A stretch of 64,000 bases of DNA from Leptospiraceae bacterium (lineage in GTDB: Bacteria; Spirochaetota; Leptospiria; Leptospirales; Leptospiraceae), in assembly GCA_947458405.1 (NCBI GenBank), contig CANGZW010000005.1, positions 1-64,000 of the forward strand, written 5' to 3'. Below are positions 23,711-27,691 of this stretch, piece after piece. The translations under genes and the position numbers were made by a program. The stretch's first letter is position 1, and each line of letters begins with the position of its first letter. Below the pieces are notes generated by a model, which searched no databases, had not been told where the DNA came from, and saw only the letters and a program-made list of their open reading frames with translations.

Positions 23711-24424
23711 ATGATTGTAAGTTTTGTTCAAACAAAAGGTGGCACGGGAAAAAGCACTCTCTCTATGAATTCTGCTTTTTCCAGAAATGTTTCTACCAGG
23801 TTTTCTTCCATAGCACTTGTCGAATTAGATCCTCAGGGCACTTTACAAAGTTGGTGGAAATCCAGAGTAGAAGAAAACAGATACTCCGGTAATGTTTCAT
23901 TTCATCATATTTCCAGTACTCAAAAAGAAGTAATACAAGATGGTATCACATCTATTGCTGGACACAATGAATTACTAATATTAGACATTCCCGGAGAGAG
24001 TACTAGCAGACTCCATACTAAGTTTGCCTGTGCATTTTCAGATAGAGTAATTGTTCCCATGAGAACATCAACAAATGATGAATCCGCTTTCAAAGATAAC
24101 CTTCTTCCAGTAATAAAAGAGATAATAAAAGTAACACCCGAAAAAAAAAGAACCTTTCAAATCTTACCATCTTTTACTAATGCTCAGTCAAACAAAGATA
24201 GAGTAATTGAATACTTTCAGGATGTGCTCCCAGACTATGTTGAATGTCTGCCAGTAGTTTATCCTTCCCGATCAATCTACGAAAATTTTAATAGGGATGG
24301 GATGAATTTAATCGAATACACGGAATCATTAAAGAAAAATAAGCGAGCACACCAACAGGCGCTTAAAGCAGTGGAGGATATTGAAGAAATCGCCGCGGCT
24401 ATCTTTAATTTCACGGAGAAGTAA
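23711..24424 (+). CDS. ParA/MinD-family ATPase
   Basis: This 237-residue ATPase would bind DNA or a membrane and position cargo along the cell. The deviant Walker A is KGGTGKST (9-16), the Walker A' region is ALVELDPQGTLQSW (35-48, with D40), and Walker B is LLILDIPGES at about 89-98. There is no N-terminal HTH, so it is of the short type like orphan ParA proteins. The usual ParB/parS is not next to it; the neighbour is a small charged protein that could be the partner. It heads a five-gene group with gaps of 1-15 bases and has its own promoter. Confidence 0.88.
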   Translation: MIVSFVQTKGGTGKSTLSMNSAFSRNVSTRFSSIALVELDPQGTLQSWWKSRVEENRYSGNVSFHHISSTQKEVIQDGITSIAGHNELLILDIPGESTSRLHTKFACAFSDRVIVPMRTSTNDESAFKDNLLPVIKEIIKVTPEKKRTFQILPSFTNAQSNKDRVIEYFQDVLPDYVECLPVVYPSRSIYENFNRDGMNLIEYTESLKKNKRAHQQALKAVEDIEEIAAAIFNFTEK

Positions 24425-24425
24425 A

Positions 24426-24851
24426 ATGCCAGTACCAAAAAAACGCAAAAAAATGGAAGAGTCAGAGGAAGTTTCTAGTGTAGAAGAATCTAAGCCCTCT
24501 ACAATTGTAGAAGAGCCAAAAGCTACTCCCAAAAAATTTGCAAAAACCGCAAGGCCTAAGGCTGAAAAAGTAGAGAGAGCTTTTGAAGTTATCGACCAAA
24601 TTGATAAAAACTCACCTACTGAGATGGAAGTCCATAAGTCTCCCCGTCAAGAAGAACAGGGGATTCATATCCAATTCAAATTGGATTTGTTTAGTATTGA
24701 AGACTTGTTGGATCTTGGGAAAAAAGAAGATAAAAAGGAAAATAGTATAGTAATTGACTTTACTTTACCCTATTTTTGGAATCTGCCGATACTAAATGAG
24801 ATAACAAAAACTGTAGTTCGTGAATTAAAAAACATGAAAATCATTCAGTAA
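24426..24851 (+). CDS. small charged protein downstream of ParA, possible ParA partner
   Basis: This 141-residue product has a very basic tip (MPVPKKRKKMEES). A low-complexity acidic/Pro-rich linker to about residue 75 is followed by a compact C-terminal part (about 76-141), IQFKLDLFSIEDLLDL then FTLPYFWNLPILNEITK. ParA partners often have a short basic N-terminus that stimulates the ATPase; here a lysine-rich start is visible, so this may be such an adaptor. ATG 24426 is preceded by CGGAGAAGTAA (a good ribosome site) and lies one base after the parA stop. No database family was recognised. Confidence 0.68.
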   Translation: MPVPKKRKKMEESEEVSSVEESKPSTIVEEPKATPKKFAKTARPKAEKVERAFEVIDQIDKNSPTEMEVHKSPRQEEQGIHIQFKLDLFSIEDLLDLGKKEDKKENSIVIDFTLPYFWNLPILNEITKTVVRELKNMKIIQ

Positions 24852-24861
24852 AAGGCCAAGA

Positions 24862-25671
24862 TTGATTCAAAAGATAATTTTTGTAACAGGGGCTTTTTTA
24901 GCCCCTTTTCTTTATGCAGACACAATAAAATTATCAGGGAATGCCAGTTTCTATTCTGATAAATTTAATGGAAAAATTACTGCCAGTGGTGAAAAATACC
25001 ACCCCGCTCATTATACTGCCGCCCATAGAGATTTATCCTTTAACACCTTAGTTAAAGTGACTAACCTCGTAAATAATCGTTCGGTAATCGTCCGCATAAA
25101 TGATAGATTGAATCTTTCCGAAAATATTGAAATTGATTTATCTAAGTCAGCAGCTATTGCCATTGACTTGATAAAAAAAGGGATCGCTCCTGTTAATATA
25201 GAGGTTTTGGGAGTAAGCCAAGAAGGAATTAATCCCCCCCAATCAAAAGTAATTGAACTGGCAAAAATAGAAACCTCTACCTCAAAAACAATCCCGGAGA
25301 AAAAACCACTTCCCATTGTAGAAGCTAGCCTATCTCTTCCTACTAATGTAAATAAAGTTATACAAAATAGTTTTACACCCTCTGATTTCTATAGATTTTC
25401 TGATCTAACAAGAAAAAAGGTATCACCCAAAGGATTTGGTTTACAAATTGGTGCCTTCATGAATGATGAGAATGCATTCAAATATGGCGAATGGGCATAT
25501 AAAAAAGGTTTTACTTCAATTTATATAGAAAATTCTAAATCAAACGGATTAAATATTTTTAGAGTAATTGTTGGAGATTACAAAAATGAAAATGATGCAG
25601 ACTTTGGAATGAATGAGCTCACAAAAGCAGGGTTCGCCTCAGCTGTAATCTACAATTTCGGTGAAGAATAA
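24862..25671 (+). CDS. rlpA: RlpA-type septal lytic transglycosylase with SPOR domain
   Basis: A signal peptide (about 1-19) precedes an RlpA double-psi beta-barrel (about 24-118): GNASFYSDKFNGKITASGEK, AAHRDLSFNTLVKVTNL and RINDRLNLSENIEIDLSKSAA. The catalytic Asp of DRG-type motifs is kept (INDRL), though the Gly is Leu, and the His of AAHR is present. A Pro/Ser-rich linker leads to a C-terminal SPOR domain (about 190-266) that binds denuded glycan at division sites. The start is TTG with AAGG upstream. It likely cleaves peptidoglycan during septation. Its place after a ParA pair suggests polar or septal positioning. Confidence 0.85.
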   Translation: MIQKIIFVTGAFLAPFLYADTIKLSGNASFYSDKFNGKITASGEKYHPAHYTAAHRDLSFNTLVKVTNLVNNRSVIVRINDRLNLSENIEIDLSKSAAIAIDLIKKGIAPVNIEVLGVSQEGINPPQSKVIELAKIETSTSKTIPEKKPLPIVEASLSLPTNVNKVIQNSFTPSDFYRFSDLTRKKVSPKGFGLQIGAFMNDENAFKYGEWAYKKGFTSIYIENSKSNGLNIFRVIVGDYKNENDADFGMNELTKAGFASAVIYNFGEE

Positions 25672-25686
25672 TAGGAGAAATTTACT

Positions 25687-26061
25687 ATGGATTCTAAAAA
25701 AAGGGCAGAACTTATAAGAGAAGGAAATGCCGCCTTTAACTCCAAAGACTATACAAAAGCTAGGCAATTATATTTAGAAACCAATTACAAAGATGGATTA
25801 ATACGACTTGGTGATTATTATATGTATGACAGAAAATTACCAATGTTAGCCTATGGGTATTACAAAAAAGCAGGATATTCTCAAAAAATAGATGAAATCT
25901 TTCAAAGAATGATTTACGCTCTCGGTGAATTATTGGGCAAAGGAATTTATAAAGCTGTAGATTCAAAACCAAAAGAGGACCTAAATCCAGATGATTTTAG
26001 AGTCCATCCTGTGCTAAAAGCAAAAGCATTAGAAATTCTAGAAAATAATAAAAATTCTTAA
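25687..26061 (+). CDS. small TPR-like protein
   Basis: The 124-residue soluble protein is helical. It begins with a TPR-like repeat, GNAAFNSKDYTKARQLYLET (about 13-32), followed by DGLIRLGDYYMYDRKLPMLA and GYYKKAGYSQKIDEIF, a degenerate second and third helix pair. The strong ribosome site TAGGAGAAATTTACT precedes the ATG. It probably mediates protein contacts inside the ParA-RlpA group: the gene lies 15 bases after rlpA and 10 bases before the NERD-helicase gene. No enzyme motif is seen. Confidence 0.72.
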   Translation: MDSKKRAELIREGNAAFNSKDYTKARQLYLETNYKDGLIRLGDYYMYDRKLPMLAYGYYKKAGYSQKIDEIFQRMIYALGELLGKGIYKAVDSKPKEDLNPDDFRVHPVLKAKALEILENNKNS

Positions 26062-26071
26062 GGCTTAAATT

Positions 26072-27691
26072 TTGGTATTTCCGGAAAAATTTCCTGAGAA
26101 TCAAAAATACGACAATAGCAAAGAAAAAGAGTTTTATTTTAGATTTCAAAATGAGCTTCCGGAAGATTGGGATATTTACTATAGTTTCAAATTTCATAAT
26201 CCCGGCATTCCATTAAGGGAATTAGATTATATAATTGTATGCCCCCTTGGAATTTACATTATCGAATTAAAAAATGCTAGATTTCGCTATGAGAATAATA
26301 TCTGGGAGATCTATGATTCCAGAGAAAAAAAGTGGAAAGAGCATGTAAAACATTTTTATACAGGTCCCATTGAACAAGTTGAGAGTGCTGTTAAAATGTT
26401 TAAAAACTTTTTATTGTACAACAACCATTTAAAAATACCCGTAGATTCAAATTCAATCACAGGTGTTGTTTTTTTAAATAAAAATGAAGTTGGACAATTT
26501 AGTAAAAATCTACCCAGTAAAGATATTATTATTTTTCATAAAGAATTACAGCATGAATCCCTTTTTGATATTTTAGATTCAATACACAAGTCAAAACGTA
26601 TCTCAAATGTAACACATCTTGAAAGAGAAAAAATAAAAAATATTATATTAATCAATGGTAACTACTATCCCGGTTTCCCGGCTAGAAGAGATGAGCAAAA
26701 AAAATTAATGATTGCTCTTACCAAAGAGCAGTTTATGATAATGGAAGGATTTAAAGATCAGGCAAGAATGATTCTTTATGGAGTTGTTGGTTCTGGAAAA
26801 ACAATGATGGCTCGAAAAGGACTGGAAATTGCCATTGATAATTCTTGGAGATGTCTGTATTTATGCTCTTCTATTCACCTAAAAGACTTTTTTGAAAACT
26901 CATATAAGGACCAAGAGAAAGTAAAATTTTTTACTTTCTATGATTTTAGATTTGTAAAGAATATAAGTGAGACCTTTGATTTTATTATTATTGATGAAGC
27001 TCAAAATATCATCTCAGGTGATATGGGTGACATCTTAGATAATATTTTAAGTGGCGGCCTTAATAATGGGAAATGGCTAATTTGTTTTGATAAAGAACAA
27101 AAAAATAAAGAATTCGATAGTGATTTCTTGAAAATTATATCTTCCTATCCACATGAATCTTATTCCCTAAATTCTAATATTAGAAATCCATCCGAAATTT
27201 TCAATATTGCTGGCTTATTAGGGGGCAAAAAACAACATTTCTCTAAGGTTCCGGATGCACTGAGTGTAAAGTTTGTAAGTTTTATAGATAATGATGATGC
27301 AAACATTAAATTGTTTGAATTAATTGATTATGGCGTAAGACAATTAAAATTATTTCCTGACGAAATTATAATTTTATCTACATTACCTCTAAATGAAAAC
27401 TTAGAAATTAAATCTAATTTTGTAAGATCTTACGATGATAAAAGATTTTATGAAATAGTAAGATACAATAGTGATGAGCCAGATAAAGAAAAAATAAATT
27501 TTTCAGTTATTGAAGATTTTCAAGGCTTGGAAGCCTCATTTGTAATACTAATTGGTATAAAAGATTTGAGTGATTCTTATTTTAGATCTCAATATTACAT
27601 AGCACTTACACGCTCTACTTACTCAGCAGGGATTTTATTTCACAAAGATTTATTTTCTGATTTAAATAAAATTATAAATATAGATAGCTAA
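26072..27691 (+). CDS. NERD nuclease domain fused to SF1 helicase
   Basis: The protein has 539 residues. The N-terminal NERD domain (about 20-135) is a PD-(D/E)xK-like fold, with D52 in ELDYIIV and the E-x-K pair E65/K67 in IYIIELKN, so nuclease activity is plausible. A superfamily 1 helicase follows: Walker A GVVGSGKT (237-244), Walker B IIIDEAQN (305-312), SLNSNIRNPSEIF, then IEDFQGLEASFVILIG and YIALTRSTYSAG as motifs V and VI. The TTG start has no strong ribosome site, but the gene lies 10 bases after the TPR gene. Similar fusions are known as stand-alone DNA-processing or defence proteins; the role here is unknown. Confidence 0.85.
   Translation: MVFPEKFPENQKYDNSKEKEFYFRFQNELPEDWDIYYSFKFHNPGIPLRELDYIIVCPLGIYIIELKNARFRYENNIWEIYDSREKKWKEHVKHFYTGPIEQVESAVKMFKNFLLYNNHLKIPVDSNSITGVVFLNKNEVGQFSKNLPSKDIIIFHKELQHESLFDILDSIHKSKRISNVTHLEREKIKNIILINGNYYPGFPARRDEQKKLMIALTKEQFMIMEGFKDQARMILYGVVGSGKTMMARKGLEIAIDNSWRCLYLCSSIHLKDFFENSYKDQEKVKFFTFYDFRFVKNISETFDFIIIDEAQNIISGDMGDILDNILSGGLNNGKWLICFDKEQKNKEFDSDFLKIISSYPHESYSLNSNIRNPSEIFNIAGLLGGKKQHFSKVPDALSVKFVSFIDNDDANIKLFELIDYGVRQLKLFPDEIIILSTLPLNENLEIKSNFVRSYDDKRFYEIVRYNSDEPDKEKINFSVIEDFQGLEASFVILIGIKDLSDSYFRSQYYIALTRSTYSAGILFHKDLFSDLNKIINIDS

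Follow-up and report, generated by a model that had tools for sequence, protein, structure and literature searches.

A basic, disordered N-terminus of the partner protein activates ParA/MinD ATPases in ParB, MinE, ParG, and PomX, and is suggested to do so in TlpT and McdB; the remainder of that protein holds the cargo (PMC7993993, PMC10241942). In ParC/ParP of Vibrio and the ParC-CheW pair of H. neapolitanus a ParA-like ATPase is encoded beside an adaptor that binds the ATPase through its N-terminal region and the cargo through a C-terminal domain (PMC5706961, PMC10241942), in PpfA/TlpT of Rhodobacter sphaeroides a ParA-like ATPase acts via the basic N-terminus of the cargo component (PMC7993993, PMC5706961), in McdA/McdB the adaptor is small (PMC11321042, PMC7993993), and in PomX/Y/Z of Myxococcus, which serves division, a short basic peptide at the partner's N-terminus activates the ParA/MinD ATPase (PMC7993993). 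Here, we compare with these systems the first two of five genes at positions 23711-27691 of a 64,000-nucleotide stretch of a Leptospiraceae genome (contig CANGZW010000005.1, positions 1 to 64,000; hereafter the window). They encode a ParA ATPase and a small lysine-tipped protein, the adaptor, and we consider it likely that they form a positioning module, with a nucleoid-bound ParA, hydrolysis triggered by the adaptor tip, and a C-terminal cargo hook.

The ParA gene (23711..24424, forward strand, 237 aa) encodes a ParA/MinD ATPase with the signature-lysine Walker A motif (KGGxGKS/T) and a CbiA/AAA_31 match above the Pfam cut-off. Its deviant Walker A sequence, VQTKGGTGKST, is invariant across a subfamily of 22 loci in three phyla (Leptospiraceae, Desulfobacterota, and SAR324), a count that is a lower bound, one contig scan having used a single query sequence and given seven loci. 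The window protein is 50-74% identical to its 21 chromosomal relatives, and its nearest solved structures are those of ParF of plasmid TP228 (E=6e-6). Some Desulfobacterota members carry an extra polybasic tail, KKKKKTR. The ParA tree groups by partner type, with four changes (the minimum possible) as against 13.5 when shuffled.

The adaptor gene (24426..24851, forward strand, ATG start, 141 aa) lies immediately downstream of parA, and an adaptor occupies this place at 22/22 loci, either overlapping the end of parA by at most 35 nucleotides (nt) or separated from it by no more than 25 nt; at one locus (L096) the adaptor ends at the contig edge after 45 residues. Alignment, a motif table, and structure prediction together give a basic tip (residues 1-10), a disordered linker, a conserved helix, AFEVIDQID (residues 52-60), and a C-terminal domain (residues ~79-136; codons 24660..24848). 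The tip codons (24426..24455) specify MPVPKKRKKM, so that the lysine-tipped protein of the initial annotation is both present and conserved; the first ten residues follow the pattern M-x-[VIL]-P-[KR]-K-R-K-K-[LM], a looser form of which, M-x-[LVI]-P-x-[KR], opens 21 of the 22 partners, and most of them also have a further motif, of AFEVIDxID or ALDTLDAMD type. A strict DNA pattern for the tip, outside which the window tip itself falls (it ends KKM, not KKL), has one match per tip-bearing genome, except that G103, with its two parA loci, has two matches, both beside parA. There were no matches in genomes lacking parA, and a reversed-pattern control gave none in 105 genomes. We also considered, and rejected, the idea that one ParA serves several tip-bearing cargos per genome, as the strict pattern found no further tip proteins in those genomes.

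By analogy with the characterised families, from which ATPase activation, nucleoid binding, and gradient transport are all carried over, ATP-bound ParA dimers would bind the nucleoid non-specifically, and the lysine-rich adaptor tip would dock on the dimer and trigger ATP hydrolysis. ParA would then leave the DNA near the cargo, forming a gradient that would space or segregate the cargo, which the adaptor's C-terminal domain would hold. Because basic N-termini are the ATPase activators in known systems, we infer that the tip and the helix contact the ParA dimer and that the C-terminal domain serves to hook the cargo. In its mechanism the pair thus most probably resembles ParC/ParP, PpfA/TlpT, or McdA/McdB, with differences from each. 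Unlike ParP, the window adaptor lacks a CheW/AIF domain and is encoded outside any chemotaxis cluster; unlike TlpT, which is itself a chemoreceptor, it is a separate protein. It resembles McdB in its size, its basic disordered N-terminus, and an invariant tryptophan (W118) near the C-terminus, which parallels the tryptophan that McdB uses to bind carboxysomes (PMC11321042), but no sequence relation to the McdB adaptor was detected, and neither the window genome nor the other ParA-positive genomes with non-CheW adaptors encode shell proteins. In contrast to PomX/Y/Z, there is no PomX- or PomY-like scaffold adjoining, and the adaptor is small.

A different origin would make the pair a remnant of a ParABS-like plasmid or chromosome partition system, with the small protein as its centromere binder. 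The window ParA does score with the NCBIfam ParA_partition model (81.5 bits, under the 180-bit cut-off), and ParG-type partners are likewise small and basic-tipped (PMC7993993). However, plasmid ParAs are at most 31% identical to it and its five phage matches are all weak, and with no close relative there a plasmid or phage origin of ParA was rejected. Domain scans find no ParB, helix-turn-helix, or ribbon-helix-helix domain in the partner, the predicted fold of its C-terminal end (at low confidence) is neither of the latter two, and the equivalent end in SAR324 is a CheW or DUF697 domain, not a DNA binder. We therefore regard a partition remnant as very improbable. The absence of ParB, together with the small basic-tipped partner, instead argues for a cargo other than the chromosome, as the initial annotation had suggested, and with the pair conserved in three phyla this is well supported.

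Three observations weigh against a positioning module of this kind. At one Desulfobacterota locus (L148) the partner has no PKKRKK tip and retains the helix motif only. The C-terminal domain is predicted as strand-strand-helix (ββα) with low confidence (pLDDT 60-67). In addition, domain scans, a PDB profile search of the adaptor, and a PDB search with the model all failed to find a recognisable relative of this domain; an assignment to a known fold was accordingly dropped, the model being of low confidence and its PDB matches not meaningful.

The end of the adaptor has been exchanged between lineages. Leptospiraceae and Desulfobacterota adaptors end in a short unannotated domain with invariant P115, W118, and P121, and those of SAR324 in DUF697 at four loci and in CheW at five (three DUF697 and two CheW loci were domain-scanned and the others assigned by sequence similarity). 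The SAR324 CheW adaptors have a related tip, MGLPSKKQL, and a CheW domain scoring 131 bits. The C-terminal domain is thus swapped between lineages, with the tip retained in 21 of the 22 partners; the genes, their pairing across the phyla, the tip, the helix, and this exchange are all seen directly in the genomes compared. At the CheW loci (L151-L155, five genomes), open reading frame (ORF) inspection gives the order cheA-parA-adaptor-cheR-cheB-cheD-cheY-cheX-like, so these SAR324 relatives share the cheA-parA-CheW-adaptor plan of ParC/ParP (PMC5706961, PMC10241942) and form a ParC/ParP-like arrangement within chemotaxis clusters. The DUF697-fused adaptors are those of L099, L100, L149, and L150; L099, L100, and L149 also have, downstream of the pair, very large ORFs with several domains and similarity of the AMP-binding type, and a Band 7 protein is encoded upstream in L099 and L149. 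A broader and decidedly speculative extension, to which we give only a minor chance, is that this ParA subfamily would be a general-purpose intracellular transporter, with lineages having fused the tip (MxxPKKRKKLD...AFEVIDxID) to different cargo domains. The CheW form would serve chemosensory arrays, the DUF697 form would act at membranes, and the form with the new ββα domain would carry storage granules in Desulfobacterota and, in leptospires, an envelope or division assembly that is coupled to RlpA. The end of the adaptor would then reveal the cargo of an orphan ParA.

The third gene of the window (24862..25671, forward strand, TTG start) encodes an RlpA-type lytic transglycosylase, with TIGR00413 at 133 bits (above cut-off), PF03330 (DPBB), and PF05036 (SPOR, above cut-off); by inspection it has a signal peptide, and its DPBB domain retains the catalytic-type H and D of TAAH...IND. 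Besides the window, four genomes of one other genus (G003, G005, G006, and G007) have closely spaced ParA, adaptor, and RlpA genes in this order, so that RlpA follows the pair in five of the six Leptospiraceae genomes that have ParA, across two genera, and is its sole recurrent neighbour across the genera of this family. RlpA is a co-inherited neighbour of the ParA-adaptor pair, and its link to the pair makes an envelope connection possible. On the strength of this genetic link, an envelope- or division-related assembly is the first cargo candidate in Leptospiraceae.

A stronger version makes the three genes a module for wall remodelling at division or at a pole, in which ParA and the adaptor position an assembly, cytoplasmic or in the membrane, that determines the sites at which RlpA cleaves septal glycan. 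The conserved order in two genera is as this would predict, ParA-type systems that place division are known (PomXYZ; PMC7993993), and other wall-related genes adjoin the pair in certain relatives: an M23 peptidase gene divergent from it in G004, a Prc-type tail-specific protease gene downstream in two Desulfobacterota (L146 and L147), and dapF upstream at three loci (L096, L097, and L101). However, dapF and prc are common genes whose occurrences here are raw counts, and the two genera are the only independent ones. RlpA is exported, which precludes direct contact with the pair and leaves any link to be regulatory or through a membrane partner. Moreover, the pairs of Desulfobacterota and SAR324 lack RlpA, and G004 keeps ParA and the adaptor with its RlpA gene on another contig (L104:1107-1937), beside a TPR gene; there TAAH has become TAAS, with Ser at the conserved His, and the enzyme is possibly inactive. 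We consider such a wall module unlikely, though its chance is not negligible, and prefer the ParA-adaptor pair as the module, with RlpA as its companion.

The cargo might otherwise be a storage granule or organelle, with polyhydroxyalkanoate (PHA) granules in Desulfobacterota and SAR324 and another inclusion in Leptospiraceae. PHA synthase is present in 10/10 non-CheW ParA-positive genomes outside Leptospiraceae, as against 11/56 ParA-negative ones (Fisher p=1.7e-6) or 5/14 ParA-negative ones above 4 Mb (p=0.002), a test of one family chosen after lipid-metabolism neighbours had appeared, on genomes that are not independent and with no phylogenetic correction. The ten genomes with both PHA synthase and the pair (G100-G104, G173, G235, G437, G526, and G529) may hold a ParA-type granule system; the granule-positioning proteins covered in a 2025 review share no homology with ParA (PMC13052382). 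Against this reading, PhaC is encoded beside the pair at no locus, and all but one of the six ParA-positive Leptospiraceae lack PHA synthase, among them the window genome, where the best match (56 bits) resembles an unrelated lipase-type hydrolase. A PHA granule was thus rejected as the cargo in the window genome, and the association elsewhere is kept as a lead. Microcompartments are ruled out as cargo for Leptospiraceae, Desulfobacterota, and DUF697-type SAR324, since the shell family PF00936 is absent from G000-G007 and from the members of the other two groups (the E. coli and Synechococcus controls being positive). Taken as a whole, we find a granule or organelle cargo across these lineages improbable.

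The window genome (G000; 3.94 Mb in 198 contigs), whose closest named relative as judged from this locus is an uncultured Leptospiraceae metagenome-assembled genome, has two further genes in the same run. The fourth (25687..26061, forward strand) encodes a 124-aa TPR-like protein whose TPR match is under the family cut-off, and the fifth (26072..27691, forward strand, TTG start) a NERD nuclease-helicase; the gene that follows encodes an LIC11270-family surface protein. The domain calls of the initial annotation thus hold for ParA, RlpA, and NERD (E=2.9e-12), with a weakly scoring SF1-type helicase core and a TPR call that falls short of its threshold. Among the 61 relatives covered by protein searches, homologues of the TPR-like gene are present in 57 (at E<=1), with the N-terminal 90 residues best conserved and no named family. 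It lies at other loci in G001-G003 and G005-G007, adjoining RlpA only in the window and G004 among the mapped Leptospiraceae, and is a phylum-wide gene and a bystander to the ParA module. The fifth gene matches RTasNERD-Hel of PADLOC over its full length (E=1.7e-35), a DRT-associated family, but no RVT (reverse transcriptase) domain was found among the flanking genes scanned (the wider window was outside that scan). Its homologues occur in 8/61 relatives in unrelated surroundings, and it is a sporadic, defence-like accessory gene outside the ParA module. A second NERD-helicase of the same kind is present in the window genome (G000:C101:1133-2857; L116); the gene ahead of it encodes a 161-aa product that belongs to no known family.

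The five genes had been proposed to form one operon, transcribed from one promoter and coupling positioning, wall cleavage, and DNA processing. They do lie on one strand with successive gaps of 1, 10, 15, and 10 nt, within the 1-15 bases first described. Promoter-like matches are no commoner than chance, however (18, versus 21.2 in shuffles), so that the single promoter finds no backing, and a terminator-like hairpin (AGGGGCTTTTTTAGCCCCT followed by TTTCTTT; 24888..24906, forward strand) lies 26 nt into rlpA, within the signal-peptide codons. With seven pairs and a folding energy of -12.2 kcal/mol it is among the best three (itself included) of 15,783 T-followed 19-mers in the window, and is missing from the sequences of the relatives. 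This strong hairpin makes co-transcription of all five genes doubtful and may uncouple rlpA and the later genes from parA and the adaptor, unless rlpA translation masks it. Its position within signal-peptide codons could also be that of an attenuator. None of the 61 relatives has the five-gene order, which the window genome alone possesses; conservation extends to the first three genes, in five genomes of two Leptospiraceae genera. The outcome that the initial annotation itself named as refuting, an order confined to this strain, is thus what is seen for the five genes together, but not for the first three. With the TPR gene elsewhere in the other relatives bar one RlpA-TPR pair, and the NERD-helicase sporadic, synteny largely refutes the one-operon reading, and a functional coupling of all five genes is scarcely credible. 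The three separate conservation histories, of ParA-adaptor-RlpA, TPR, and NERD-helicase, indicate that the run of five genes was put together in the window genome alone; the conserved module is ParA and the adaptor, and RlpA accompanies it at family level.

Since unrelated bacteria combine this motor and adaptor tip with a different end for holding the load, the ParA-adaptor pair is probably a reusable intracellular positioning system. The 10-residue tip motif offers a direct way to find its partners, and the swapped C-terminal domain a basis for guessing the cargo. The PHA-granule link in Desulfobacterota and SAR324 is a testable lead, and in leptospires the pair would represent an uncharacterised positioning system that is genetically tied to a wall-cleaving enzyme.

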